A program made the translations under genes and the position numbers. Below, one piece after another: positions 1-20,602 of a DNA stretch of 21,124 nucleotides. Each line of letters begins with the position of its first letter. The stretch's first letter is position 1. The stretch comes from a virus: IMG/VR virus record IMGVR_UViG_3300033886_000117, positions 1 to 21,124 of that record. One strand, given 5' to 3'. Under the pieces are notes generated by a model. That model worked only from the letters and a program-made list of their open reading frames with translations, did not search any database and was not told where the DNA came from.

Positions 1-1540
1 TGTCGGCAATCGCCGTTCCCTCCGTGCCGCTGTTGATCGAGTATTGGCCAAGCGGTCCATCGCTGCCCGGCTTCACCCAGTATTGGTTGGGGTCTCCTTG
101 GCCACCCGTAGGCCACAAGCCAATGATCCAGTTCGAGCCATCCCAACGGATGTACCACTCGATATCTGAAGCGATTTTCCATTGCGGCCTGCCGTTGTAG
201 AACCCATCATACTGGAAGTACTCGCCAATGGCCGTATTAGGCGTGATCGCGCCATCCACGTAAATGCAGTCCGGATAGGCCTCACTGCTGCTTTCGCTGC
301 CGCTGCTCTCACTGCTGGATTCAGAGCTACTTTCACTGCTCGATTCGGAGCTGCTCTCCGAACTGGATTCCGAACTCGACTCCGAGCTAGACTCTGAACT
401 GCTCTCACTGCTTCCGCCACTCGATTCACTGCCGGAACTACCGCTGCCCTCACAGCAGAGATAGACGGAAACGGTAGGCCGATCCTCCTGGCCAATCAGG
501 CAACCTTGCTGAAAGGTGAAGCGCTTTACCGGGAAGACCAGGTAATCGCCTTGCCGGCTGGGCGGGGCGACCAGAAGATCAAAAGAGCCGGTCAGCCCAT
601 TTTCGCAGCCACCGCCGCCGCTGCTGGAACCGCTGGAACTACTGGACTCTGAGCTGCTCTCGCTGCTGGATTCAGGGCTGCTCTCGCTGCTAGATCCTGA
701 ACTCGACTCCGAGCTGGACTCCGAACTCGACTCAGAACTGGATTCAGAGCTACTCTCTGAACTGGACTCTGAACTACTGGAACTGCTGCTACAGGGACAG
801 TGCCGGATCATCACCAGCATCCAATGATTCGGACCGGCCATGTGCCGCAGGAGCACTTCCGTATCTTTCGGTAGATACTGGCAGCCGGTCTGCGGATCGA
901 TCAGAGCGGCCGGATGGATGCTAATCAGGCCGTAGTCGTCATGGGCCAGACCGGTAATTTGTGTGTCGCGTCCCTGCTCGTAGGCGTCCTGGAAAGAGAC
1001 TTCTGCTTGTTGGCATGCGAACCATTGGTCGCTCTTAACCTTGGCCGGGACCAGCTGTTCGTAGGTGTCTAGCAACAGCCAGAGGCCGCTGGGGTAATGG
1101 TAGATAGCCCACACCCAATCGCCCTCCGCATAGCGGGGAGGAAGCAGATGGTCTTGGCCGTCTTGGCCACGGAAGGGGTTGCGGTTCAGGCCGGGGTAGG
1201 CCGTTGGGGCCCAGAGGCGGATGCGCTGCTCCGGTACAGCCGGCGCCCAGGCTTCCGCCGGGCCTAAGCCCCGCTGCAAGATCACCGCTTCGCAATAGTG
1301 CCAGGCCGTGGGCAGAAGCTCCTGGTCTTGGCCGGGGGGTACATGCTGCCAGCCAGATGCAATCTGCACTAGCTGGATCGGCTGTCGCGGACGGACCAGC
1401 AGCCGCTGGCCTTCGGCCGACTGATCCAAGTCCATGCCATCGACGGTCCAGTTCAAGGCGGCCTGAGTGCCGCGGAGATGTTCGGCGGCATGGGCCGCCA
1501 GGATCGGATCGCCCGGCTTTGGTATCGGAAGCGTGCGCAT
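1..1540 (-). CDS. Large tail-tip / receptor-binding-like protein with Ser/Glu linkers (3' end outside window)
   Basis: An open frame starts at the ATG at 1540, just after an in-frame stop at 1562-1564, and runs off the left edge for at least 513 codons. Residues 1-250 form a Trp-rich, globular-looking region. Residues about 251-307 are mostly ESSS tetrads. A Cys-containing domain (about 308-370) follows, then a second ESSS tract (375-420). The last 90 or so residues are Trp/Tyr/Gly-rich (for example YNGRPQW and IEWYIRWDGSNW) and continue past the window. Position after the tape measure and distal tail-like genes suggests a fibre or adhesin at the tail tip that contacts the host. I recognise no named family, so the function is inferred from position and architecture. 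No clear Shine-Dalgarno precedes the start. Confidence 0.7.
   Translation of the reverse strand, partial: MRTLPIPKPGDPILAAHAAEHLRGTQAALNWTVDGMDLDQSAEGQRLLVRPRQPIQLVQIASGWQHVPPGQDQELLPTAWHYCEAVILQRGLGPAEAWAPAVPEQRIRLWAPTAYPGLNRNPFRGQDGQDHLLPPRYAEGDWVWAIYHYPSGLWLLLDTYEQLVPAKVKSDQWFACQQAEVSFQDAYEQGRDTQITGLAHDDYGLISIHPAALIDPQTGCQYLPKDTEVLLRHMAGPNHWMLVMIRHCPCSSSSSSSESSSESSSESSSESSSESSSESSSGSSSESSPESSSESSSESSSSSGSSSGGGGCENGLTGSFDLLVAPPSRQGDYLVFPVKRFTFQQGCLIGQEDRPTVSVYLCCEGSGSSGSESSGGSSESSSESSSESSSESSSESSSESSSESSSESSSESSGSESSSEAYPDCIYVDGAITPNTAIGEYFQYDGFYNGRPQWKIASDIEWYIRWDGSNWIIGLWPTGGQGDPNQYWVKPGSDGPLGQYSINSGTEGTAIAD
281..418 (-). repeat. ESSS tetrapeptide-repeat tract B
   Basis: On the minus strand this encodes about eleven ESSS-type tetrads (residues 375-420 of the tail protein). 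Ser codons are mixed (AGC, AGT, TCA, TCC, TCG, TCT) and Glu uses both GAA and GAG. The repeat is therefore kept at protein level rather than being a fresh DNA slippage expansion. It is probably a flexible, charged linker, and the serines could be modification sites. Confidence 0.85.
620..790 (-). repeat. ESSS tetrapeptide-repeat tract A
   Basis: Residues 251-307 of the same protein, starting just after a CPC motif. About nine ESSS tetrads carry single Gly and Pro variants and end in a Gly-rich stretch. With tract B it brackets a Cys-containing domain of about 65 residues, giving a bead-and-linker architecture. Confidence 0.85.
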
Positions 1541-18440: not shown

Positions 18441-18917
18441 CTACTTAGGCAATCGCCAGACCGTGATGCTCGCGCCGGGGCTGCCGTCTTTGGCGGCGTA
18501 GTGTTTCATGGTGCGGATTTCGGCCACTTGGGCGTCGTCGGCAATGACCACCCCGGTCAGGGCGTCCAGCACAGCCCGGAGCAGTTTGTCCAGGTCAGGC
18601 CTACGGGTAACCGACTCGGGAGCGTCGGGCCGAAGGCGTCCTGGACCAGGTTTGCCGCCCCGGTAGTGGCTCTTAGGCCGGGGGAACGTAAACCATACGT
18701 ACACCCGGACCGGACCGGTCCAAGGCGGCTCCGGCCCAAAGACCTGAGCGGCTATGGTCCGCACGGTGGCCACCCAGTCGGAAATCCGCCGATCCTGCAC
18801 CAGCCGCATGGTATGCGAGCCGTCGGCCCGTCGGATCGGCACAGCCCGTAGGCTCCCCTTGGCCGCCGGCAGCCCAGAAACCCAGAACACTACTCCCACT
18901 TCACTGCGGTAAAACAT
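18441..18917 (-). CDS. rusA: RusA-family Holliday junction resolvase
   Basis: A 158-aa protein that overlaps the initiator gene by 17 nt. It shows the RusA signature RRPDLDKLLRAVLDALTG (105-122) with Asp108, Asp110 and Asp118, followed by VIADDAQVAEI with Asp127/Asp128. These acidic residues bind the catalytic metal in the family. The basic FTFPRPKSHYRGGKPG segment would contact DNA. RusA dimers cut four-way junctions, here probably resolving branched replication or recombination intermediates before packaging. Length is slightly above the 120-aa E. coli enzyme. Confidence 0.92.
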   Translation of the reverse strand: MFYRSEVGVVFWVSGLPAAKGSLRAVPIRRADGSHTMRLVQDRRISDWVATVRTIAAQVFGPEPPWTGPVRVYVWFTFPRPKSHYRGGKPGPGRLRPDAPESVTRRPDLDKLLRAVLDALTGVVIADDAQVAEIRTMKHYAAKDGSPGASITVWRLPK

Positions 18918-19932
18918 CGGCAGGGGGACTCCGTAAGTGGAGCGATCCCACTATGCCACCCCGGACCACGGCCAGGCACTCCTGGAGCATCGCCTTGGTA
19001 GCGGCGATTTCTTCGGGGCTGCGGGGCGGCGAGCCGTTGGGCGGCGGCTTGGAGCAGACGCAGGCCGGCTTGCGAGGCAGTGGCGCCTGATGCACCCAAT
19101 CCGGCACGGCAAGCCCGTTGAACCAGGCTAGCTCGTCCGACGGCACTTGCCGCATGGCCAACGACTGCAGGTAGGCCCCGGGATTTCGGGGCTTTGGCCC
19201 AGCCTGCAGTGCTTCCCAGAAGGCGTCCAGGATGGCTTTAGCCCAAGGTTTTCCCCTGGCTTGAGCCACCAGGAGCCGTGCTAGCAGGCGGCGATCCCGC
19301 TCCTGTCGTGGCCAGCCACGCGGCCAACCGGCGGCCAAACGCTCAAAATCCGAGCGCAGACCCGCATCGTTTTGACCAGACGGGTCCTCCAGGGCCACCT
19401 CCGGAGTTTCCTCCGGAGTGTCGCCTATATACGTCGTCGACGACGACGTATATATATTCTCTTCTCTTCTATAGTCCACTTCTTGTCCACTTTCTAAGTG
19501 GACATTTTGTGGACAAATTGTAGACAAATTGTGGACAAATTGTGGACAAGAAGTGGACGTACTTGTTGGGGGATTGGGTATCCCCTTTTGGCGGAGTTGC
19601 CGTTTCCAGGAGCGTTCTTGCAGCCGGCGTTTGGCCGCTCCCGTGAACCACCGATCGAAGGCCGGGATGCTCACCCCCGAATCTGAAACCAGGAGCCAGC
19701 CCACCTTTTGCAGCTCGACAAAAAACGCCTTTCGTATATGGGTAGCCACCGCCAGGGTATCAGCATCCATATACGGCAGCGATCCATCGGCTGTGTGGGC
19801 CTGGGCCCAGCTCCAGAAACGGACTAGCAGACCGACAACCTCGTCCGTGGAACATTTAAGCGCCATAGCCAGCCGGACCACTTCCGGTTTATTCGGCAAC
19901 TCCACCGAGATGGGAATCCAATCGCCTGCCAT
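18901..19932 (-). CDS. Replication initiator-like protein (lambda O type)
   Basis: A 343-aa protein starting MAGDWIPISVELPNKPEVV, a form typical of phage replication proteins. Residues about 1-115 look like a winged-helix DNA-binding domain (DEVVGLLVRFWSWAQAH, WLLVSDSGVSIPAFDRWF) ending in a basic helix. Residues about 124-169 are a low-complexity linker whose DNA is the iteron/palindrome block. Residues about 190-270 are helical (RRLLARLLVAQARGKPW, AILDAFWEALQAG) and may recruit a helicase or loader. The rest is Pro-rich. N-terminal origin-binding domain, origin DNA inside the linker and C-terminal interaction domain match the plan of lambda O. It is the only initiator candidate here; no helicase, loader or polymerase is visible. 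Confidence 0.75.
   Translation of the reverse strand: MAGDWIPISVELPNKPEVVRLAMALKCSTDEVVGLLVRFWSWAQAHTADGSLPYMDADTLAVATHIRKAFFVELQKVGWLLVSDSGVSIPAFDRWFTGAAKRRLQERSWKRQLRQKGIPNPPTSTSTSCPQFVHNLSTICPQNVHLESGQEVDYRREENIYTSSSTTYIGDTPEETPEVALEDPSGQNDAGLRSDFERLAAGWPRGWPRQERDRRLLARLLVAQARGKPWAKAILDAFWEALQAGPKPRNPGAYLQSLAMRQVPSDELAWFNGLAVPDWVHQAPLPRKPACVCSKPPPNGSPPRSPEEIAATKAMLQECLAVVRGGIVGSLHLRSPPADVLPQ
19426..19454. repeat. Perfect palindrome with 14-bp arms
   Basis: TATATACGTCGTCG, one central A, then CGACGACGTATATA. The arms match exactly. Encoded residues are a low-complexity Ser/Thr/Tyr run, so the symmetry is probably selected at DNA level. Confidence 0.9.
19471..19561. repeat. Eight 11-bp iterons
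   Basis: Six direct units run end to end from 19496: AAGTGGACATT, TTGTGGACAAA, TTGTAGACAAA, TTGTGGACAAA, TTGTGGACAAG, AAGTGGACGTA. Two more in the opposite orientation (GTCCAC cores 11 bp apart) lie at 19471-19492. The 11-bp period equals about one helical turn. Since 11 is not a multiple of 3, the protein shows only an 11-residue periodicity (CPQ-VH). Confidence 0.88.
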
Positions 19933-19986: not shown

Positions 19987-20078
19987 GCCTGTCGGGGGGA
20001 GTCGAACCCCCTTTCGCTGCGTACGAGTCAGCGTTGTGGTCACCATCGACCTGCTATTTCTGTAAGCTACTAACAGGG
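19987..20078 (-). tRNA. Degenerate tRNA-like element
   Basis: The minus strand has a perfect T arm (GGGGG, TTCGACT loop, CCCCC) at 19995-20011. A class-II-like fold is possible: acceptor CCTGTT (20077-20072) with GACAGG, D-like stem GCT/AGC, a GGTC/GACC stem, and a long variable-arm stem CGCTG/CAGCG. The D loop lacks GG and the putative anticodon loop has 6 nt, so no identity can be given. A shorter fold would read a CGT anticodon but has a poor D arm. It overlaps the end of the nuclease-like gene. It may be a decayed tRNA, an attachment-site remnant, or chance. Confidence 0.3.
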
Positions 20079-20602
20079 TTTCCGCCGAACTCTTCGTAAA
20101 TAGCTCGCCATACTACTTGGCGAGGCACAAACACGCATTCACTATGGTAGTTTCGTTCCGGCGTTTTTTGGCGAAACACAGGATACATCCTGGTCCAACG
20201 CTGCCAATGGCGCTGGAAAACACGACACAGTTGGGGAAACGAAACCAAACACCACCGTCCGGTGTCTTGCCAAAACCACAAGATGTAATCACAGCCTTTC
20301 TGCTCATCTCGTGTCCAACCGACAATTCGCTCTTCGACTACCGACCATGTTTCCAAAGCAAGGTCATCTTCTCCCCGTTTGGCCAGGTAATCTACGTCCC
20401 GTACCTTCACGTCGACGGCAAGCGGTCTGCCCCGAGCGTGATCGACCCAGTAGTCTACTCCGGCACGGTCGTCGTGGGCGCTTGCTTGCCGGACACGCCA
20501 TGCGCCAGGGATGGCATGAAGCAAAATGTCAGCAATGCGTTGACCTGCCGACTGCCCTTGGCTCCACAAAAGTTTCTCTCGAAAACTATATGCCTTCACC
20601 AT
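20054..20602 (-). CDS. PD-(D/E)XK nuclease-like protein
   Basis: A 182-aa protein beginning within the methyltransferase gene (17-nt overlap). It has an N-terminal helix with GQSAGQRIADILLHAIPGAW. The candidate nuclease core follows: Asp50 in GVDYWVD, then the hydrophobic strand LAVDVKVRD with Asp64 and Lys66, fitting the D...(D/E)xK pattern. LALETWSVVEERIVGW and CDYILWFWQDTGRW resemble the downstream core of such folds. A sampled line is about 50% GC, lower than the virion genes. Partnered with a methyltransferase it could be a restriction-like or DNA-processing nuclease. Family and substrate are not certain. Confidence 0.65.
   Translation of the reverse strand: MVKAYSFREKLLWSQGQSAGQRIADILLHAIPGAWRVRQASAHDDRAGVDYWVDHARGRPLAVDVKVRDVDYLAKRGEDDLALETWSVVEERIVGWTRDEQKGCDYILWFWQDTGRWCLVSFPQLCRVFQRHWQRWTRMYPVFRQKTPERNYHSECVFVPRQVVWRAIYEEFGGNPVSSLQK

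Follow-up and report, generated by a model that had tools for sequence, protein, structure and literature searches.

A probable replication origin nested in a phage initiator gene and its layout across the phrog_2509 family

The initiator gene and its linker

The window, that is, the whole stretch of DNA analysed here (21,124 nucleotides), is a 21-kb linear virus record and represents a fragment. It carries a structural gene set comprising tape-measure, capsid, portal and terminase, while its right end holds a replication module with an MT-A70 methyltransferase, an unknown ORF, a replication initiator and a RusA resolvase (Table 1). A trypsin-like protease domain protein (PF13365; 7002-8342, minus strand) is found among the structural genes. 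The ORF at 2-1540 (minus strand) contains long SSSES serine/glutamate repeats that derive from 12/24-bp tandem DNA repeats, and the 182-aa ORF beside the initiator (20054-20602, minus strand) looks nuclease-like by eye and has no Pfam or PHROGs match. A protein search for relatives of the window among genomes, aimed at the host, found none.

Residues 1-116 of the initiator match the phrog_2509 'replication initiation protein' family of PHROGs with an E-value of 7.4e-28, which places the N-terminal domain in that family. The domain reads as a winged helix in a model predicted with confidence; by sequence, it gave no match to solved structures. Three close relatives of the initiator (L003-L005) share 99, 95 and 81% amino-acid identity with it.

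Table 1. Coordinates of the initiator gene, its neighbor and the elements of its linker
Feature	Position in window	Strand	Remarks
RusA-like Holliday junction resolvase, just 3' of the initiator gene	18441-18917	-	Replication/recombination module context
Replication initiator gene	18901-19932	-	343 aa; phrog_2509 / phrog_9474 N-terminal domain
N-terminal winged-helix domain (predicted), presumed iteron-binding	19582-19932	-	AlphaFold model, pLDDT 85
Iteron core 1, direct, GTCCAC	19553-19558	-	
Iteron core 2, direct, GTCCAC	19542-19547	-	
Iteron core 3, direct, GTCCAC	19531-19536	-	
Iteron core 4, direct, variant GTCTAC	19520-19525	-	GTCCAC in all three close relatives
Iteron core 5, direct, GTCCAC	19509-19514	-	
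Iteron core 6, direct, GTCCAC	19498-19503	-	
Iteron core 7, inverted relative to the gene, GTCCAC on plus strand	19485-19490	+	13-bp step from core 6, the usual +/- step in phrog_2509 homologues
Iteron core 8, inverted	19474-19479	+	Adjoins purine tract
AT/pyrimidine-rich stretch	19455-19473		Contains purine tract 19457-19470
Purine-rich tract AGAAGAGAAGAGAA	19457-19470	- (coding strand)	Flanks TAT and TATATATA; presumed DNA-unwinding element
Perfect inverted repeat, 14-bp arms, 1-nt spacer	19426-19439 / 19441-19454 (19426-19454)		Presumed hairpin element

About 375 nt into the gene, the linker carries an array of eight GTC(C/T)AC cores, six of them direct and two inverted (GTGGAC on the minus strand of the gene), with start-to-start steps of 11, 11, 11, 11, 11, 13 and 11 bp. 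The original prediction described eight 11-bp units. All eight are present, but the conserved unit is the 6-bp core; its flanks are variable, and 11 bp, about one helical turn, is only the spacing. The array is retained in the three close relatives, and among the members found the GTCCAC core is confined to the window and these relatives. Nucleotide divergence between the window and L005, the 81% relative, amounts to 2.3% in the N domain, 3.5% in the iterons and 21.9% in the C-terminal part. Because the first two diverge far less than the third, the N domain and the iterons are either transferred or conserved together.

The AT/pyrimidine-rich stretch and the perfect palindrome with 14-bp arms are both located inside the linker, as had been predicted. 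The purine tract aligns by position with AGAGAAGAGAAGAGAAGA of the homologues and is a short form, with 14 purines beginning 3 nt from the last core and without the ACC prefix; we count it as a tract of the AGAGAAG type. Both arms of the palindrome are kept in L005, where the spacer is 4 nt rather than 1 nt, and folding of the window strand yields z = -8.9 against shuffles. Two nearby TCCGGAG copies (ACTCCGGAGGAAACTCCGGAGG on the gene strand) lie beside the palindrome at 19387-19418 and are not intact in L005. An Rfam search for a known RNA family returned only sub-threshold chance matches. The GC-skew change proposed as a check is not seen: the skew does not change sign at the array and lends no support to an origin, and on a 21-kb fragment the measure is uninformative.

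Codon shuffles, in which the amino-acid sequence of the linker was fixed and codons were sampled by their frequencies in the phage's own genes, produced 1.0 cores on average and 5 at most (5000 shuffles) against the 7 exact copies observed. The longest inverted-repeat arm averaged 4.9 and reached at most 12 in 1000 such shuffles, against 14 in the window, and a purine run of 14 was attained in 0.6%. As protein-preserving shuffles fail to reproduce the units or the palindrome, the array and the palindrome are not a by-product of the encoded protein.

Layout of the linker among homologues

The proposed comparison of homologous linkers finds the repeats kept and so leaves the original prediction unrefuted. 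A protein search yielded 56 distinct homologues (<85% N-domain identity). In 48 of them the linker contains a purine tract of the AGAGAAG type, with ACC, ACT or CCT before it in 45 of the 48, and all 48 contain at least two core copies upstream of the tract. Of 83 steps between cores of the same orientation, 74 measure 11 or 12 bp, and of 51 +/- steps, 45 measure 13 bp. The commonest order is ++--; the window, with ++++++-- and steps of 11 and 13, displays a longer version of this plan. The core itself is specific to the clade (GTAACG, GTCCGC, GTCACG, GTAGAC, GTCCCG or GTCAGA, and GTCCAC in the window). The C-terminal parts of the initiators are mosaic, being DnaT-like in epsilon15 and of other kinds elsewhere. 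Several homologues, most of them enterobacterial, have perfect DnaA boxes TTATCCACA at a distance of 30-50 nt past the tract (L025 at +39; L222 at +30 and +45; L224 at +48; L243 at +33; L251 at +45 nt after the tract end), and L009, L013 and L017 also have perfect boxes beyond the tract. Host DnaA involvement is possible in these homologues.

The three reading frames of the tract are used 29, 15 and 4 times in the protein-found set and 69, 36 and 7 times in a set collected solely by DNA pattern, with the translations TREEKRREE, PEKRREEK and QRREEKR. Since a near-invariant tract, ACCAGAGAAGAGAAGAGAAGA, is read in all three frames, it is the DNA rather than the protein that is selected; on this point the original prediction is strongly upheld. 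That the same DNA is read in three ways shows with unusual clarity how selection at the DNA level overrides the protein sequence.

As an unbiased probe, the exact 21-mer ACCAGAGAAGAGAAGAGAAGA was used to scan IMG/VR and 84,980 species genomes by DNA pattern. In IMG/VR, 112 of 119 usable stretches have it within an ORF bearing a phrog_2509-type N domain; of the others, three are truncated by the start of the contig, and the N domains of L204 and L217 are of other kinds. The species genomes contain the 21-mer only 64 times, 54 of them in an ORF with a phrog_2509-type N domain (Pseudomonadota 37, Planctomycetota 10, Verrucomicrobiota 5, Bacillota 1 and one unassigned). Wherever the tract sits in a gene with such an N domain, the purine strand is the coding strand. 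In L204 and L217 the tract ACCAGAGAAGAG stands behind unrelated N domains and is preceded by other repeats (GATATC-type and GGCGTCA-type), which indicates that it is not exclusive to a single DNA-binding domain.

Folding energy anchored on the tract end in 109 distinct loci exhibits two peaks, one corresponding to the inverted iterons and the other to a hairpin that starts roughly 0-10 nt past the tract, and is near flat elsewhere in these loci. Hairpins with a perfect stem of at least 6, a loop of 3-6 nt and a start within 15 nt of the tract occur at 36 of 143 loci (25%), compared with 423 of 14,502 background windows (3%). Their stem sequences differ, and paired changes are observed within one clade (CCGTATC/GATACGG, CCGTACC/GGTACGG and CAGTATC/GATACTG). 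The bottom-strand loop reads cGNNAg or cGNAg in 18 of the 36 hairpins against 3 of the 423 in background, and the polarity is 18:0, with none in the opposite sense. Loops of these types occur in exceptionally stable DNA hairpins. In the phrog_2509 family the GN(N)A-loop hairpin is frequent but not universal and so is not a defining trait. The window hairpin is the strongest among the compared homologues and is placed as theirs are, but has a gtc/gac loop rather than the GN(N)A bottom-strand type of the family, and its equivalence to the hairpin of the homologues consequently rests on position.

The core co-varies with the N domain. Pairs with at least 60% N-domain identity have an identical core in 97-100% of cases, and pairs below 50% in 5-18%, with related sequences being non-independent. 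The core undergoes 20 changes on a maximum-likelihood tree, compared with 52 in shuffles (0 of 200 shuffles are as low), a statistic to which shared ancestry contributes and for which the core classes were set by eye. For the same two reasons the co-variation falls short of proof, though it is consistent with recognition, as expected if the N domain binds the core. The main core classes are well separated by alignment columns that include 51, 52, 55, 59, 62 and 66, which fall in the strand and helix predicted for the winged helix, and 105/109, which fall in the helix after it. The two Rac prophage ydaU alleles have a common C-terminal half and differ in both N domain and repeats: the MN652886 allele has GTAACG repeats, and the K-12 allele is a DUF1376 protein with TGTTCAAAC-type repeats. 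The linker of K-12 ydaU (L286:6120-6977) features TGTTCAAAC/GTTTGAACA repeats and a C/G-rich inverted repeat, and its sequence makes it a candidate Rac origin. The origin of Rac is presumably oriJ. It cannot serve as experimental support here, because K-12 ydaU is a different allele that lacks the tract, and the record annotates no origin there. We note that co-evolution of an initiator with its DNA target is testable in this family, since a single layout and a single N domain are common to many clades whose cores differ.

Interpretation and alternatives

The linker array is very probably the replication origin of the phage, nested in its own initiator gene and composed of iterons, an unwinding tract and a hairpin, in a lambda-type theta arrangement. 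The original prediction of an origin embedded in the initiator gene is thus supported, with tract and repeats together in 48 of 56 homologues. The initiators form a separate, widespread family, for which an initiator-nested theta origin of this lambda type is the most likely mechanism. The N-terminal winged-helix domain would bind the GTCCAC iterons, six direct and two inverted at intervals of about one helical turn, and the iteron-bound domains would build a nucleoprotein complex. The neighboring purine/AT-rich tract would then open, the inverted repeat beyond it could fold on single strands, and the C-terminal part of the initiator would bring in the helicase, either via a loader or directly. 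The outcome would be theta replication as at lambda ori.

Beyond the original prediction, the analysis adds a family-wide code of exchangeable iterons, fixed spacings and a near-invariant three-frame tract, together with a polar hairpin loop; a description of neither was found in the searchable literature, nor was a paper on hairpin loops of these types. No literature on the AGAGAAG tract or on the origin of the phrog_2509-type family was found either, and subscription papers lay mostly outside this search, so such work may exist. Tentatively, these features could define a large and apparently undescribed class of phage origin, in which the iterons co-evolve with the N domain, the AGAGAAG unwinding string is recognized by a factor common to many phages (the initiator core or a host factor), and the polar cGNNAg/cGNAg hairpin serves as a signal in single-stranded DNA that directs helicase or primase loading to one of the strands. 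Origins have been mapped in only a few temperate phages. The 21-base string and the repeats beside it point to where the origin, and which sequence the iteron, is likely to be in phages and prophages from at least four phyla of bacteria. The polar hairpin loop provides a quantifiable element of these putative origins.

A variant of the origin reading, which we regard as unlikely, has the tract opened by an RNA:DNA hybrid (R-loop) arising from transcription of the initiator gene, with the hairpin acting in the transcript. It would agree with the identity of purine and coding strand in these genes, although a single ancestral orientation would yield the same strand rule. Twelve of 28 strong hairpins also read C-UNAC-G on the sense strand, which we assume to be an RNA tetraloop type. 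The triloops and other loops fit the bottom-strand DNA rule (cGNAg/cGNNAg) better than the UNAC rule, however, and for this reason the RNA reading is kept only as a rival.

It is improbable that the repeats are DnaA boxes through which host DnaA would fire the phage origin. The sequence TTGTCCACA is one mismatch from TTATCCACA, the array holds three exact copies and two more with one mismatch, and perfect boxes are present beyond the tract in several enterobacterial homologues. Yet the eight units have no more than the GTCCAC core in common, and half of them do not have the following A that a DnaA box needs, and homologues carry GTAACG, GTCCGC, GTCACG, GTAGAC or GTCCCG at the same place, none of which is a DnaA box. 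With 3 of 8 units exact to TTGTCCACA, unrelated cores in other clades and no box trait running through the family, an oriC-like origin was rejected.

That the region is only a recombination joint, in which low-complexity linker DNA permits swapping of initiator N and C halves, is very improbable. The mosaic C-terminal parts, the Rac ydaU alleles with only the C part in common and the occurrence of the tract behind other N domains all agree with such swapping, but it leaves the clade-specific cores, the fixed steps of 11/12 and 13 bp and the strand-polar hairpin loop unexplained. A joint of this kind may hold alongside the origin reading. It is equally hard to credit the repeats as an operator for initiator self-repression and the inverted repeat as a transcription terminator (a sense pause or an antisense stop): the antisense strand has a T-rich stretch after the inverted repeat and scores terminator-like, but the array lies deep inside the gene, far from its start, no T run follows the hairpin on the sense strand of homologues, and the near-invariant purine tract is not accounted for.

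Comparison with known systems

The modeled N domain has an arrangement similar to the winged-helix N domains of RepA-type plasmid initiators (PDB 5kbj, 4pql, 4pt7 and 4pta, which we take to be RepA_N family members). These are among the top VIA-align rows, with Z of 5.0-5.4 over 82 residues at 7-10% identity, values that are weak (Z <8) and come with no sequence match, and the resemblance is suggestive only. RepA_N-type plasmids also have iterons inside rep. Much closer are the phrog_2509 initiators of epsilon15, SPN1S, Rac (MN652886), phiPSA1 and CP2, which share with the window a homologous N domain and, at the same place, the repeat layout and the tract. They differ in their cores (GTCCGC, GTAACG), in having fewer units and in their C-terminal parts.

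The gene had been called O-like, a description that is valid for its organization and not for its sequence: against the lambda O family (PF04492 / phrog_277) the initiator has no Pfam match and no PHROGs O-family match, and the hhalign probability is 0.2%. Lambda ori in gene O (Phage_rep_O, PF04492) and the probable origins of the phrog_2509 family are both nested in the linker of the initiator gene, and on the coding strand both run in the order of iterons, purine-rich AT tract and hairpin. Lambda ori comprises four iterons and a purine-rich tract, followed directly by a hairpin with a 10-bp stem that includes one G-T pair; the window likewise has iterons and an adjoining AT/purine-rich tract within its initiator gene. 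The AT tract of lambda unwinds, and the minimal unit for this consists of two iterons with the tract (PMC7466680, PMC6022878); O also binds single-stranded DNA of the AT-rich tract (PMC7466680). The iterons are unlike, each being an inverted repeat of ~18 bp in lambda, whereas the window family has 6-bp asymmetric cores in 11-bp steps with a switch of orientation, and its tract is a near-invariant AGAGAAG string, unlike that of lambda. The original prediction saw the logic of lambda ori with different repeats, spacing and palindrome; the palindrome is no departure, as lambda and about a quarter of the homologues fold a hairpin after the tract.
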